Source: Larus michahellis
Lineage: Eukaryota; Chordata; Aves; Charadriiformes; Laridae
Direction: 5' to 3'
DNA: 64,000 nt
NCBI RefSeq assembly: GCF_964199755.1
Contig: NC_133911.1
Location: 1,639,001-1,703,000 of the forward strand
Shown piece after piece: positions 35,501-47,500 of the stretch (positions are counted from its first letter, which is position 1; every line of letters begins with the position of its first letter). A model generated the notes under the pieces. The model made no database searches. It was given only the letters and a program-made list of their open reading frames with translations, and was not told the origin of the DNA. Both the position numbers and the translations under genes were made by a program.

Positions 35501-38500
35501 CACACACGTCCCCGTGTCGGTGCACGCACGTAGAGGTGCAAATGCATGTGCACAGCCACGTGTGAGTGCACACACGCGTCCCCGTGTCGGTGCACACATG
35601 CAATGGTGCAACCACGTGCAGAGCCGCGTGTCGGTGCCCACACGCGTCCCCGTGTGTGTGCGACCTCCCCCCTTCCCCCCCCGCCCTCCCCCGGTGCGCC
35701 GCGACCCCCTGCTGTCCCCCTGCCCCTGCGTCCGTGTCCCCGCACACGCGTGTGCGCGCTGCGTGGCGGTGGCGGGGCAGGAATGCAGCGGGGGGCGATG
35801 AGCTCATCCCCCCCCCGCGCCGCCGGCCGTGACTCCACGGCGCAGCTATGCGGCCCGGGCCCTGCCAGCACCCACCCCTTGGTGTCCCCCCCCCTACCCC
35901 GCCACCGGTGGCGGTGACGTGGCCTGGCACCCAGCGGGGGGGGGTTGGCGGGTGTCCCCCCAGGTCACCCATGGCGGCGCCCGGGGCTCGGCCGAGACCT
36001 CCTTCCCCGAGGACACGGTGGCCGACCACGTCGGGGGGACGCGGGGACGGCGGTACTACGCCCAGCTCTCCGATGACGAGGACCTGGTGGCGTCTGGCGG
36101 TAAGGTGGCAGCGGCGGGGGCGGGGTGGGGGGGGGGGTGGCACCTTTTGGGGGGTGTCATCATGAGTGGGTGCTACCATGGGGGGGTGCCACCCTGGGTG
36201 CCACTCGCGCTGTCCCCATTGGAGATGGCACCGGGAGCTGGTGGCATCTGGTGGTGAGGTGGCACTGGGTGGCATGAGTGAGTGGCTGTCACCATGGGTG
36301 GGTGCCACACAGGGTGGGTGTCACCACGAGTGGGTGCTGCCATGGATGGGTGTCACCCTGGGTGCCACTCGCGCTGTCCCCATTGCAGATGGCACCGGGA
36401 GCTGGTGGCATCTGGTGGTGAGGTGGCACCAGGTGCCATGGCTGTCACCATGGATGGGTGTCACCCTGGGTGCCACTTACACTGTCCCCATTGCAGATGG
36501 CACTGGGAGCTGGTGGCATCTGGTGGTGAGGTGGCACCGGGTGCCATGGCTGTCACCATGGGTGGCTGTCACCCTGGGTGGGTGCCACACTGGGTGGGTG
36601 TCACTACGGATGGGTGCCACCTGGATGCCACTTGTGCTGTCCCTATTGCAGGTGGCAGTGGGACCTGGTGGCACCTGGCAGTAAGGTGGCACCAGGTGGC
36701 TGGGTGCCACCATGGTTGGGTGCCACCGTGGGTGGGTGTCACCACGAGTGGGTGCCACCTGGATGCCACTTGTGCTGTCCCCATTGCAGAGGGTGACGGC
36801 ACCTGGCTGTAAGGTGTCACCATGGTTGGGTGCCACCAGGGCTGGCTGTCACCCCAGGTGGGTGCCACCATGGGTGGGTGTCACCATGAATGGGTGCCAC
36901 CTGGATGCCACTTGTGCTGTCCCCATTGCAGGCGGCCGTGGCACCTGATGGCACCTGGCTGTAAGGTGTCACCGGGGTTGGGTGCCACCAGGGGTGGGTG
37001 CCACCGTGGGTGGGTGTCACCGTGAGTGGGTGCCACCCTGGGTGCCACCCGTGCTGTCCCCATTGCAGATGGCAGCGGGGAGGACGGCAGCGGTGTCCCC
37101 TGGCTGCCCAAGAACACTACCCACGTACCCGCCCTCGGGCTGACACCCACCGGTAAGGGACGCCGGGGGGGTGGCACCGGTCCCCGGGGTGTCACCTTCG
37201 TGTCACCGCTCTCAAGCTCTGTCTCCTCTCCGTCCTCCTCTTCCTCCTCTTCTTCCTCCTCCTCTTCCTCCTCCTCCTCCTCCTCCTGGGCGGGCAGTGC
37301 CCGGGGCCCCCCCTGCGCCCGCGGGCATGGTGGTGGCCGAGCCCGAGGACGACCCCCCGCTGAGTAAGTGACACTTTTTTGGGGGGGGGGGACAACCCCC
37401 CCCCTCCCTCCTTTTGCTGCACCCCCACTTTTTTCTCCCAGTGCTGTATATTGGGGGGGGGGGGCACCCCCACAGACTGGGGGACACAGGTGGAAGGGGG
37501 GGGTGGGTCGCAGCTGGATGGGGGTGACGGGCGGGTATTTTTTTGGGGGGGGTGGTGGTGGTGGTGCAGATGTCACACTCCCCCCCCCCCAATTTTTGAC
37601 ATCCCCCCCCCGCATTTTTTACCGCCCCCCCCCCCCCCCAGTTTATTTCCGGGCGCTGGTGAACTTCACCCGCAGCATCGACTACAGCCGGCAGCTGGAG
37701 GACCCCGAATCCGAGGAATTTCGGGAGATTTCGGAAGCCGTGGTGGATACGGTGAGGTGGGGGGGGGGGGGAGGTTACGGGGCCGGGGGGGTGGTGGGGG
37801 ACCCAAGGGAGCACCCTGACCCCCCCATTTTCTGCTTCCCCCCCCCCGTCCAGCTGGAGTCGGAGTATTACAAGGTGCCCGGGGAGCAGGTGGTCAGCGT
37901 GGTCTTCATCAAGTGAGCTGGGGGGGGGGGGGAGTTGGGGGGGGCCGGGGGGAGGGGGGGGGAGAAGGGGTGAGGGGAGGTTTGGGGGGGCACGGGGGGT
38001 TTTCAGGGCGCAGGGGGAATTGGGGGCCTTGTGGGTATAGGTGGGTTTTGGGGTGCAGGGGCTGATGGGGAGGTTTGGGGGGGCAGTGGGGGGGTTTTGG
38101 GGTGCGGGGGGGGGGATCGGGGGTAAAGGGGGAGGGGGCGTTGGGGGGCGATGGGAGGTTTGGGGGGGCAGTGGGGAGGTTTGGGGGGGTTTGGGGGCAC
38201 AGGGGGACTTGGGGGCCTTGGGGGTGTAGGGGGGTTTTGGGGTGCAGGGGCTGATAGGGAGGTTTGGGGGGGCAGTGGGGGGGTTTGGGGGGTTTGGGGG
38301 TGCAGGGGGACTTGGGGGCCTTGGGGGTGAGGGGGAGGTTTGGGGGTGCAGGGGGGGTTGGGGGCCTTGGGGTTATAGGGGGGTTTTGGGGTGCAGGGGG
38401 TTGGGGGGATTGGGGGTGATGGGACGATTGGGGGGGCCATGGGGGGGTTGGGGGTGCAGGGGGAATTGGGGGGATGGGGGGGTGATGGGGAGGTTTGGGG

Positions 38501-41500
38501 GGGATATAGGGGGTTTTGGGGTGCAGGGGGTGTTGGGGGTGTCAGGGGGTGATGGGGAGGTTTGGGGGGGCCCGGGGGGGGGTTTGGGGTGCGGGGACGG
38601 GTCGGGGGGCAAAAGGGGGATGGGGGGATTGGGGGTGATAGGGAGGTTTGGGGGGATACGGGGGGTTTTGGGGTGCGGGGGCGGGTCGGGGGGCATTGGG
38701 GAGTGATGGGAGGTTTGGGGGGGGGCAGTGGGGAGGTTTGGGGGTGCTGACCCCCCCCCCTCACCCCCCAGGGAGGTGGAAGGCGACGTCTTCGTGGAGC
38801 TGGACGTGGGCTCGGAGGGGAACGGGGACGAGGGGCAGCTGGGGGGGGTCCTGCGGGACCTGCTGGCCGCCGGCTCCATCGCCTCCTACCTCACCTCCCC
38901 CCTCGGCTTCCAGTTCCGGCGCCTGGGGGCCGGTGAGCATTTTTGGGGGGGGGGGGGGGTGGGGGGGGGATGGTGGTCCGAAGGGTTTTGGGGTGTGTGT
39001 GGGGGGGCTCAGATCACCCCATCCCATCGCCTTGTCCCACGTAACGGAGCATCGCGCCTCCCCCCTGCCATTAAATTCGCGGTGGGTGGCAATTGGAGGT
39101 GGGGGGGGGGCGGGGGGGGGGGCGGTGTGCGTCACCCTGATTGTGCTGCTCAACCCCCCCCCCCCCCCCCCCCCCCAACCAGTGACCCCCCACCCTCGCG
39201 CCTGCACCCCCCTGGAGTTCGCCTGCGGCAGCGGCGAGTGCGTGGCCGGCGAGTACCGCTGCGACCGCCGCCCCGACTGCCGCGACGCCTCCGACGAGGA
39301 CGGCTGCGGTGAGGACCCCCCCCCCATGCCATAAAGCCCCCCCGGAATCCCCCCTGCACCCCCGTTTACCCCATAACCCCCCCGCCGTGCCCCCTTTCTC
39401 TCCATAACCCCTCCATAACCACCCCATATCCCCCCTGCACCCCCGTGTCCCCCCATAACCCCCCCACCGCGCTCCCGTTCCCCCCATAAACCCCCCCCGA
39501 CATAACCCCCCCATACCCCCCCACTGCACCCCCATTTCCCCTATAACCCCCATATCCCCCCTGCACCCCCATTTCCCCCGCAAAACCCCCCCCATATCCT
39601 CCCCGCATCCCCATTTCCCCCCATAAGCACGCACTGCGCCCCCATTTCCCCCCATAAAGCCCCCCCATATCCCCCCCGCACCCCCATTTCCCCCCCACTG
39701 CACCCCCATTTCCTCCCATAAAACCCCCCCATATGCCCCCGAACCCCCATTTCCCCCCATAACCCCCCCACTGCACCCCCATTTCCCCCACATAACCCCC
39801 CCATATCCCCCCGCACCCCCATTTCCCCCCCACTGCACCCCCATTTCCTCCCATAAAGCCCCCTCATATCCCCCCTGCACCCCCATTTCCCCCCATAAAG
39901 CCCCCCCATATCTCCTTCGCACCCCCATTTCCCCCCATATGCCCCCCGCACCCCCATTTCCCCCCATAACCCGCCCCCCCCCCCCCCCATTTCGTTCCCC
40001 GCAGACCCCTCGCCGCGGACGCCCCCCAGCACCGCCCGCCCCGCCACCACCCGCCCGCTGAGCACCGCCGCCCCCGCCACCCCGCCGCCGCGCCGGCCCC
40101 TCACCCCGCGGCCCCCCAAACCCCCCCTTGCCCTCCCCGGCGGGTGCCCCGCGGGCGAAGCCCCCTGCGCCGACGGGCGCTGCGTCCCCCGCGACTACCT
40201 CTGCGACGGCGAGCGCGACTGCGCCGACGGCAGCGACGAGGAAGCCTGCGGTGAGTCTGCGGTGACGCGGCCGGGTCAGGAAAGAGGGGGGGGGGGTGTT
40301 GCGTGTGCGCGTGGCAGGGGGGGGCACCCTATGGGTGCTGACCCCCCCCCGTCACCCATATCACCCAGGCACCCCCTCGCCCTGCGAACCCAACGAATTC
40401 AAGTGCCGCAACGGGCACTGCGCCCTCAAGTTGTGGCGCTGCGACGGCGAGAACGACTGCGGCGACGGCTCCGACGAGAGCGATTGCCGTGAGTCCGGCC
40501 GCCGCCGGGGTTGGGGACAGGCGCCCGCGCGCGCCAAGGTCCGGAGAGGAGGGAGGGGGGGGGGGTAAGGGGTGTGACACGCTCTCCCCGTTGACGTGTG
40601 TCACCGTCACCCCGCTTGCAGCCACCAAGGCCCCCGGGGCGGCCTGCGGGCCGGCGGAGTTCCGGTGCGTGGCCAGCGGGAGCTGCATCCACGCCAGCTA
40701 CCAGTGCGACCGCGAGCCCGACTGCCCCGACCGCTCCGACGAGGTCGGCTGCGGTGAGTGACACCGACACCAAGGGGACACCTCTGCCAGGGCAGGGGAC
40801 ACCTCTGCCAGGCCTTGGGGACGTGGTGACCCGGGGATGGGGTGAGGAACCTGTGCCATGGCACGTTGGGGACGCTGCACCCAGTGACCGTCTGCCGTGG
40901 CACATGTTGGGGACACCGTGACCGGGGACCCTCTGCCATGGCACTGGGCTGGGGACACTGTGCCTGGGGACCCCGTGCATGGCACTAGGCTGGGGACACT
41001 GTGACTGGGGACCCTGTGCCATGGCACATGTTGGGGACACTGCAGCCAGGGACCCTCTGCCATGGCATGGGGCTGGGGACACTGTGCCTGGGGACCCCGT
41101 GCATGGCACTAGGCTGGGGACACTGTGACCGGGGACCCTGTGCCATGGCACATGTTGGGGACACTGTGCCCAGGGACCTACTGCCATGGCATGGGGCTGG
41201 GGACACTGCACCCAGGGACCCCATGCATGGTACATGTTGGGGACACTGCACTCAGGGACCGTCTGCCATGGCAGCAGGCTGGGGACACTGCGACCGGGGA
41301 CCCCGTGCATGGCACTAGGCTGGGGACACTGTGACCAGGGACCCTCTGCCATGGCACATGTTGGGGACACTGCACTCGGGGACCGTCTGCCATGGCACAT
41401 GTTGGGGACACTGCCGAGGGACACCATGCATGGCACATGTTGGGGACACTGCACCCAGGGACAGTCTGCCACAGCACCAGGCTGGGGACACTGCAACCGG

Positions 41501-44500: not shown

Positions 44501-47500
44501 AGGGGCTGAGCATCTTCCCAACAGGCGTCAACGTGACGGTGCCGGCGGCGCCGTCCCCACCGGCGCTCTCGGCCACCCAGCTCCACGTGGACGTGGGTGT
44601 CGAGGAATTCCAGCTCCTGGATCTCTCCCGCCGTTTCCTGGCCCTTGACGCCTTCTGGGCGCTGCCAGCCACCTTCCTTGGGGACAAGGTGACGCTGGGG
44701 TGGGGACAGGGCTGGGGACGCTGGTGGCATGGCCGCTGCCGGCTGCCTTCCTCGGGGGCGAGGTGACGCCGGGGTGGGGACGGGGCTGGGGACGCTGGTG
44801 GCACAGCACTGACAGCCCGTTGGTGTTGGCAGGTGGATGCCTACGGGGGGGCGCTGAGTTATGGGGTGCGGTACCGGCTGGGGCGGGGCCCCTCCGAGCC
44901 CACCACCCACCCCGATGTGGTGCTGCGGGGCCACGGGCGGCAGCTGCGGGCGCGCGCCGGGGCCACTCAGCCCGATGTCCTCAACCGACGGCACGTGCCC
45001 TTCACTGAGGTGGGTGGGCGCGGGGCAGGGGGTGGTGGTGGCAGCGGGGTGATGGCAATGGTGGCGGTGGTGGAAGGGTGATGGTGGCGGTGGTGGAAGG
45101 GTGATGGTGGTGGAGGTGGAAGGGTGATGGTGGTGGTGGAGGTGGAAGGGTGATGGTGGTGGTGGAGGTGGAAGGGTGATGGTGGTGGTGGTCGGCGGGT
45201 GATGGTGGTGGAGGTGGAAGGGTGATGATGGTGGTGGAGGTGGAAGGGTGGTGGTGGTGGTCAAAGGGTGATGGTGGTGCAGGTGGAAGGGTGATGACGG
45301 TGGTGGAGGTGGAAGCGTGATGATAGTGGTCAAAGGGTGATGGTGGTGGAGGTGGAAGGGTGATGGCAGTGGTGGTCGAAGGGTGATGGCAGTGGGTGGT
45401 TGATGGTGGTGGTGGTGGTGGGAGGGTGAGGGTGGTGATGATGAATGAGTAATGCCAGTGGTGGCGGGGTGGATGATGGCAGTGAGGGGGGTGGTGGTGG
45501 TAGAAGGGTGATGGTGGTGGGACGGTGATGGTAATGGGGGTGGAGGCAGGTGGTTGATGGTGGTGGTGGTGGAAGGGTGGTGGTGGTGGTGGTGGAAGGG
45601 TGATGCTGGTGGTGGTGGTGGGGTGATGGCAGTGGTGGTGGTGGGGGGGTGATGGCAGTGGTGGTGGGGGGGGGTTGATGGTGGTGGTGGGAGGGTGACG
45701 GTGGTGAGTGTGGAGGTGGGTGGTTGATGGTGATGGCGGTAGAAGGGTGATGGTGGTGGGTGGGTGATGGTGGTGGGTGGTTGATGGTGGTGGGACAGTG
45801 ATGGTAATTGGCGTAGAGGTGGGTGGTTGATGGTGGTGGTGATGGGAGGGTGATGGTGGTGATGACGGATGAGTAATGCCAGTGGGGGCGGGGTGGGTGA
45901 TGCTGGTGATGGGTGGGTGGGTGGGTGAGGATGGAGGGGGGTGGTTGATGGTGGTGATGGTGGGAGGGTGATGGTGATGGTGGTGGGTGGTTGATGGTGG
46001 TGGGATGGTGATGGTAGTGGGGGTGGAGGTGATGCGGTGATGGTGGTGGTGGTTGGGTGATGGTGGTGAGAGTGGAGGTGGGTGGTCGATGGTGGTGGTG
46101 GTGGGAGGGTGATGGCAGTGGTGGTGGAGGTAGGGTGATGCTGGTGGTGGTGGGTGGTTGATGGTGGTGGGTGGTTGATGGCAGTGGTGTGGGGGGGTGA
46201 TGGTGGTGCGTGCTGGTGGTGATGGGTGGGTGATGGCAGTGATGCTGGTGGTGGTTGGTGGCTGATGGGTGATGCTGGTGTTGGTGGGGGGTGGGTGATG
46301 CTGCTGGTGAGAGGTGGGTGATGGTGGTGGTGGTGGGGTGATGCCGGTGGTGATGGCTGAGTAATGCCGGTGGTGGCAGGTGGGTGATACCGGCGATGGG
46401 TGGGTGATGCTGGTGGTGAAGAGCGGGTGATGCTGGCGGTGGCAGGTGGTTGATGGTGGTGATGGCGGATGGGTGATGCCAATGCTGGCATCGCCCTGGG
46501 GTGACACGGGTGTCACCATCCCCGCAGGACCACTGGGAGGACGAGGAGGGTGCCCCGGTGAGCCGGGAGCTGCTGCTGCTGGTGCTGCAGGGGCTGGAGG
46601 GTATCTTCATCCGGGCGGTGTACGACGGGCGCATGGCCAGTGTGGGGCTCAGCGACGTGGCCATGGACGTCACCAGCCCCGGTGACACCGGCCTGGGGCC
46701 AGCCGGGGATGTCGAGGAATGCAGGTGAGTGCCGGTAACGAGGTCGCGGGGCTCGGTGTCACACCACCGCTGCCCCGCCGCCGTCACACTGCCGTGTCCC
46801 CAGGTGCCCTGTGGGCTACGCGGGGCTGTCGTGCCAGCGATGTGCCACCCGCTTCGAGCGGGTGACGAGAGGACCCTACCTGGGGACGTGCTCCGGCTGC
46901 GGCTGCCACGGCCACTCCAGCACCTGCGACCCCGTTTTCGGGCACTGCCTGGTAAGGAACGGGGGGTGACAAGGGGATGGGGAGGTGGCTCGGTGTCACC
47001 ACCCCCCCCGTGCCACGTGTGTCTGTGTCCCCCGTCCCACCCCCCCCAGAACTGCCAGCACAACACGGAGGGTCCCCAGTGCGAGAAGTGCAAACCCGGC
47101 TTCTTCGGCGACGCCACCAAGGGCACGGCCACCGCCTGTCACCCTTGTCCCTGTCCCTACACCGAGCCGTCTCGCAGGTGGGTGCCGACCCCAGGGGGAG
47201 TCGCCCCCTCCCCTCCCCAGCTGTCGCCGCCCCGGGACGTCACCACCGTGTCCCACCCCCCACCGGCGTCGCCCGCAGGTTTTCGGAGTCGTGCTTTTTG
47301 GACACGGACGGCCAAGCCACCTGCGACGCCTGCGCACCCGGTTACGCCGGCCGCCGCTGCGAGAGGTGGGTGGGGGGGGTCCCTATAAACCTCCCCCCTT
47401 CCCCACCGCCCCCCCCCGCCCCCCGCCAAAACCCGAGACACCCCCCCCCATCACCTCCCCCCCCCCCCCATCCCCGTAGGTGCGCCCCGGGCTACGAGGG

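Follow-up and report, generated by a model that had tools for sequence, protein, structure and literature searches.

In tandem exon duplication, unequal exchange multiplies exon-bearing segments of a gene. A tandem duplication over an intron-exon border can re-use the splice signals that it inherits, and in the part of PMC3443670 considered here the new intron is one that is used. The closest described system, judged from passages of the 2026 Genome Biol Evol report (PMC12954441), is the sequence or exon stuttering of birds, in which the lateral part of an exon is copied together with the adjacent donor or acceptor, with a preference for exon borders. As given in those passages, the copies number 1 to 44 and span 112 to 23,555 bp, and the source lies at most 1 base from an exon border in over 90% of cases. 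The screen, which had a floor of 20 bp and 42.1 bits, named 115 genes; the affected introns lie mainly on dot chromosomes (190 of 236), independent expansion in each species is suggested, and length varies extensively between individuals.

We analyzed a stretch of 64,000 nucleotides of Larus michahellis (the window; contig NC_133911.1, positions 1,639,001 to 1,703,000). The gene studied in it is HSPG2 (perlecan), with named perlecan matches from Pezoporus, Corvus and Numida at 84%, 70% and 69% identity, respectively. Its exons, located as complex frames and islands of unique sequence, lie amid minisatellites, tandem repeats making up 72.5% of the annotated introns and 0.6% of the exons between 35964 and 63193; the list of exons is an approximation that lacks at least one exon and has two acceptor borders not falling at AG. 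Exons 2 to 7, conceptually spliced, give an open frame in which S-G-D arises across the exon 2/exon 3 junction, in agreement with the preliminary description of this DNA, which had placed a tandem array exactly at the junction encoding the heparan-sulfate attachment sites. A SEA domain lies 3' of exon 3, followed further on by exons that we take to be of the LDL-receptor-A, Ig, laminin IV and laminin-EGF-like types. Before the SEA domain there is a 66-nt exon (37298-37363) with a low acceptor score, which has a counterpart in Pezoporus P0001 and apparently in Vipera P0005 and none in the Corvus P0004 and Numida P0002 models, and is possibly an alternative sauropsid exon. The segment 40201-40240, outside the exon list, was revealed by its likeness to the next such exon as part of what is presumably an LDL-receptor-A-like exon. 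A BLASTN match of 40.1 bits in the intron 39309-40368 was rejected as a case of stuttering, as it represents the LDL-receptor-A exon absent from the list. The features of the array and its flanks are as follows:

35964..36099, + strand: HSPG2 exon 2, 136 nt, ending in phase 1, peptide starting VTHGG and ending DDEDLVASG (placed by donor, translation and site scores)
36100..37068, + strand: HSPG2 intron 2, 969 nt, 88% tandem repeat
36225..36253, + strand: unit 1 hybrid block, 29 nt; good donor GTGAGG, acceptor TTGGAG crippled by its G at -3
36389..36417, + strand: unit 2 hybrid block, 29 nt; acceptor and donor both score like the true pair
36497..36525, + strand: unit 3 hybrid block, 29 nt; acceptor and donor both score like the true pair
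36652..36680, + strand: unit 4 hybrid block, 29 nt; acceptor scoring higher than the true one, donor weakened by A at -1
36790..36808, + strand: unit 5 block, 19 nt, shorter by 10 nt; acceptor good, donor weakened (T at -1)
36932..36960, + strand: unit 6 hybrid block, 29 nt; TGA in the post-exon-2 frame, acceptor good, donor weakened (T at -1)
36547..37069, + strand: higher-order repeat, period 280, 1.9 copies, two units in each
37069..37152, + strand: HSPG2 exon 3, 84 nt, symmetric phase 1-1, peptide starting DGSGEDGSG

Intron 2 is thus composed of seven intron-like pieces (125, 135, 79, 126, 109, 123 and 108 nt) around six blocks of 29, 29, 29, 29, 19 and 29 nt, every block being preceded by AG and followed by GTRAGG. 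The blocks start at 36225, 36389, 36497, 36652, 36790 and 36932, and true exon 3 at 37069; the unit donors, three GTGAGG and three GTAAGG, lie at 36254, 36418, 36526, 36681, 36809 and 36961, and the true exon 2 donor at 36100 is GTAAGG. These positions confirm the six acceptor-block-donor units reported earlier. Blocks 1-3 read ATGGCACCGGGAGCTGGTGGC or nearly so and block 4 reads GTGGCAGTGGGACCTGGTGGC, in each case the start of exon 3 fused to the end of exon 2, and the units fall into two clades, 1-3 and 4-6. Downstream of several donors we noted GGTGGCACC, the reverse complement of GGTGCCACC in an inner 16-nt repeat (36100-37068).

The array would share with tandem exon duplication the multiplication of exon-bearing segments by unequal exchange, exon 3 being symmetric (1-1), but it copies only exon edges, and its fused blocks of 29 or 19 nt are singly out of frame. 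Like the case in the consulted part of PMC3443670, it would arise from duplication over an intron-exon border with inherited splice signals; there a new intron is used, whereas here an existing intron is enlarged and the new sites are candidates only. As far as the passages of PMC12954441 describe it, avian exon stuttering is the class to which the HSPG2 array belongs, and in kind it is already explained. Both are made up of imperfect tandem blocks, strictly local and tens to hundreds of bases long, that lie in GC-rich bird introns and are drawn from an exon border with the adjacent splice site carried through the intron and the exons left intact, and the six copies and span of about 1 kb lie inside the ranges in those passages. 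The intron, 88% tandem repeat, lies between intact exons, six donor and six acceptor contexts have been copied into it, and the copies cross 36099/36100 and 37068/37069, placing the source within 1 base of the border. The best exon 2 hit, 24.3 bits over 12 nt, does not reach the published exon-hit score (42.1 bits, at least 20 bp), which is a screen threshold and not a definition and which was obtained with BLASTN settings not identical to ours. The HSPG2 contig measures 10,192,798 bases (10.2 Mb), and the class as presented in those passages resides mainly on dot chromosomes. The HSPG2 unit differs from the cases in those passages in spanning both exon edges and the whole intron, which yields closed micro-exons, in having exon pieces of about 18 and 11 nt that fall below the screen floor, and in that it looks shared between birds. 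Section 7, the discussion and further passages of PMC12954441 hold no description of a unit with both exon edges or common to several birds, and its main text does not mention HSPG2, its supplementary gene list being outside this comparison. Among titles and the starts of abstracts in the literature we found no other such array, and stuttering terms lead to PMC12954441 alone.

The likeness of the units to the flanking exons was compared with chance in several ways. The donor context of exon 2 (15 + 15 nt) has six copies in intron 2 with identities of 83, 83, 87, 83, 70 and 80%, and the acceptor context of exon 3 (22 + 11 nt) has six with 88, 91, 79, 85, 79 and 79%. In a comparison of 27 introns of at least 100 nt, with approximate boundaries and two acceptor borders not at AG, none of the 26 others had copies of both contexts, the sole other match being one donor copy in 44689-44832. 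Over the 31 nt of block end plus donor, identity to the end of exon 2 and its donor is 87, 87, 87, 90, 68 and 81%, the 90% copy lying at 36661-36691, in agreement with the example in the preliminary description. Its view that the blocks start like exon 3 holds for units 1-4 (10, 10, 9 and 9 matches to its first 11 nt) but not for units 5 and 6 (6 each), whose putative derivation from exon 3 is weak. At least 9 of 11 matches to the exon 3 start also occur at four places in intron 2 other than block starts, and the first 28 nt of exon 3 alone, set against the intron, gave a z of 1.0, which is not significant. The end of exon 2 against its own intron gave a z of 4.4 (0 of 200 shuffles), second among 86 tests, the top of which is the separate case at 44689-44832 (z 6.5). 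With exon sequence only, the BLASTN match of exon 2 is near noise, its 24.3 bits falling between the best scores for shuffled introns (22.3 bits for adjacent and 28.2 bits for other introns). A scan for at least four like cassettes on both strands of 264,000 bases (the window plus 100 kb on either side, with 200 N), its thresholds chosen in knowledge of the array, returned one array, that of intron 2. Across the whole genome, a 22-nt pattern formed by the acceptor core and ATGGCA, with as many as 2 mismatches allowed, is found in at least 7 places, at least 5 of them here, namely units 1-4 and the true acceptor.

Furthermore, the block ends and donor regions together show 46 differences relative to exon 2, and in 14 of these the exon-2 state has undergone a CpG transition (at -8, -2 and -1 in the block ends). 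Many of them are shared and hence not 14 events; their polarity points to copying from exon 2 into the array. The start of intron 2 (36103-36123) is 81% identical over 21 nt to the intron 2/exon 3 border (37067-37087), and part of the exon-3 likeness could therefore stem from intron sequence; the same direct repeat at the two ends of the intron could have seeded unequal exchange. A second case of stuttering, one-sided, lies at 44656-44803, where two copies of period 74 cover the last 33 nt of an exon, presumably of laminin-IV type, together with its donor; the copied donor context from 44748 is 87% like the true one.

Protein searches, two of which scored the 7993 and 7998 candidates with most shared words, gave 47 different proteins, and 38 of these were inspected. 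Array cassettes are present in seven bird-like contig translations, six of which include an exon 2 resembling that of the window; the relatives were seen as translated frames, from which their AG and GT letters are deduced. The best match in the 264 kb falls inside 36100-37130 for 7 of 9 proteins tested. The cassette-bearing translations P0030, P0031, P0032, P0036, P0037, P0042 and P0045 scored 151, 50, 146, 53, 44, 170 and 102 bits, and their reversed sequences at best 55, 28, 73, 29, 29, 63 and 58 bits; low complexity lifts this control to as much as 73 bits, so that the margin (44-170 versus 28-73) is what counts. P0030 and P0042, which are near-identical and not independent, read from the intron end through the exon-3 start DGSG into an exon-2-like end, and the relatives keep DGSG with DLVAS or WWHLA cassettes. 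Given that P0036 and P0037 resemble P0046 of Hirundo rustica in exon 2, the array is, on sequence grounds, probably older than the divergence between songbirds and the bird of the window; P0046 gave no array match, scoring at best 22.3 bits inside the array. In P0033, with an exon 2 ending LADEASG, exon 3 follows after about 95-100 nt (by eye), an unexpanded intron, and its best match is at 36997-37248. Block lengths read by eye are 29, 30, 29 and 29 nt in P0042, 30, 29 and 29 in P0030, 29 and 29 in P0032, 30 in P0045, 21 in P0031 and 19 in P0036, the count leaving aside, as unclear or partial, P0037, the final unit of P0032 and all later ones of P0031, P0036 and P0045; 4 of these 12 lengths are divisible by three, close to the share that drift would produce.

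Site scores computed from consensus frequencies are 4.26 for the true donor and 4.24, 4.24, 4.24, 0.92, 0.73 and 0.73 for those of units 1-6, and 3.78 for the true exon 3 acceptor and -2.26, 3.78, 3.78, 5.36, 3.78 and 4.76 for the unit acceptors. Units 2 and 3 alone match the true pair in acceptor and donor alike, and four of the six have a weaker site. The pairing of splice sites described earlier is present as AG and GT in all six units, but the unit 1 acceptor, TTGGAG, falls to -2.3 against 3.8. Under stricter thresholds the + strand of the window holds seven acceptor-donor pairs 10-60 nt apart, two of them in the array. A single 29-nt unit, if included, throws the reading frame out, and the first stop is then met at codon index 79 for units 1-4 and 50 for unit 6 (numbered from 0 at the exon 2 start), and unit 5 by itself shifts it into a frame that is stop-free to exon 7. 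Three 29-nt units (87 nt) restore the frame, as had been calculated before, and are stop-free in 9 of 10 trios; 29 + 19 nt (48 nt) likewise restore it and are stop-free in all five combinations. Among the 64 unit combinations 21 are in frame, 18 of them stop-free through exon 7 (17 and the empty one), and retention of the whole intron brings a stop at 36255. In a pairing model the true donor is 0.58 unpaired (98th percentile) against 0.23-0.44 for the decoy donors, and the true acceptor, at 0.39, is not more open than the decoys (0.33-0.46). That RNA pairing might hide the decoy donors is only suggested by this one method.

The array itself is real, and we consider it probable that it represents two-sided exon stuttering whose units are decaying decoys, most likely skipped by splicing. 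The ancestral intron 2 would have been about 100 nt long, as in P0033, and the duplicated segment would have comprised the last ~18 nt of exon 2, the entire intron and the first ~11 nt of exon 3. At every junction an exon-3 start would then be joined to an exon-2 end, creating a closed hybrid micro-exon with an acceptor before it and a donor behind it. Further copying and losses, perhaps helped by the inner 16-nt repeat, may have produced the six units in their two clades. The preliminary description had proposed that the exon-2 end, the intron and the exon-3 start were repeatedly duplicated in tandem, and both the sequence and the matching cassettes in the seven translations support this origin. 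The cassettes would have inherited their splice signals from the exon borders and then decayed, CpG transitions and small indels accounting for part of the decay. For ordinary exon definition a block of 19-29 nt is short. Given this shortness, the damaged site in four of six units and a true donor predicted to be the most open, the units are likely to be skipped, and the spliceosome most likely still joins 36099 to 37069, the units acting as weak decoys. The anatomy, the similarity to the exons and the cassettes in other sequences are observed; the order of these events and the skipping of the units are what we infer.

A process compatible with this history, though we regard it as rather improbable, is concerted evolution, in which gene conversion from the constrained exon 2/exon 3 borders refreshes the motifs. 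Consistent with it, the units vary least in their 16-nt acceptor core, where 3 of 96 letters differ compared with 24 of 144 upstream (Fisher p 0.0008), or 2 of 90 compared with 18 of 126 once CpG columns are removed (p 0.003), and the acceptor half of exon 3 is 92% like units 1 and 2 and 75% like the neighbouring unit 6. However, almost every upstream difference follows the 3:3 division into clades, so that few independent events inflate the test, and recent common ancestry explains units 1-3 equally well. Because of this 3:3 sharing we rejected the letter-based p of 0.0008, and with it the small variation in the acceptor core, as evidence of constraint. With weaker sites in four units and 4 of 12 block lengths in relatives being multiples of three, the earlier characterization of the cassette as splice-ready and not neutral is overstated and, in that wording, unsupported. 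The suggestion in the preliminary description that copy number may affect splicing or the glycosaminoglycan region is a hypothesis.

It is unlikely that the units are used as alternative or poison micro-exons with low or tissue-specific inclusion, such that one 29-nt unit would cause a frameshift, a stop and nonsense-mediated decay, and 29 + 19 or 3 x 29 nt would lengthen the region beside the SG sites in frame. The scores of units 2 and 3, the five of six acceptors at or above that of exon 3 and the 17 non-empty combinations that stay in frame and stop-free through exon 7 are in keeping with such use, as are the mini-introns of 79-135 nt, a length that suffices for intron definition. Against it, all four bird or bird-like proteins that span the junction (P0001-P0004) are without an insert: the annotated models P0001 (Pezoporus) and P0004 (Corvus) join a DLVASG exon-2 end directly to exon 3, in birds that may or may not carry the array, and P0002 (Numida, annotated) and P0003 have an exon-2 end that differs from DLVASG. 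Moreover, no hybrid block joined to exon 3 was seen by eye among the 38 sequences inspected of the 47 matches, and block length in the relatives is not preserved modulo three.

We hold it doubtful that the first duplication was in frame, creating a 30-nt phase 1-1 exon encoding DGSGDLVASG that was once, and maybe still is in some birds, part of a real expandable exon array, here reduced by 1-nt and 10-nt losses to out-of-frame relics. The fusion would have occurred at the GGA common to exon 3 (...GGGGA) and exon 2 (...GAGGA). One P0045 unit is in frame (ADGTGDLVASS|GK, 30 nt), and by eye different single bases have been lost in P0032 and in the window. If true, every copy would have brought extra SG/SGD glycosaminoglycan sites. 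An ordinary minisatellite, whose GGTGGCACC-type unit contains AG and GT by chance and whose exon likeness is coincidence or low complexity, is highly improbable: the inner 16-nt repeat is of low complexity, introns here are mostly tandem repeat, the exon-only BLASTN is near noise and only two of the seven stricter pairs lie in the array, but both junction contexts recur in register six times, unmatched in the other introns tested or elsewhere in the 264 kb, and relatives retain their DGSG plus DLVAS or WWHLA cassettes.

The array of HSPG2 is a two-sided and apparently old instance of exon stuttering in a basement-membrane gene, adjoining the heparan-sulfate attachment exon, and mice null for exon 3 are, according to the part of PMC6056265 considered, without perlecan heparan sulfate. 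The six graded decoys next to one true pair constitute a natural test of splice-site competition. Given that the array lies under the detection limit of the screen as stated in the passages of PMC12954441, such arrays may exceed the number counted there.
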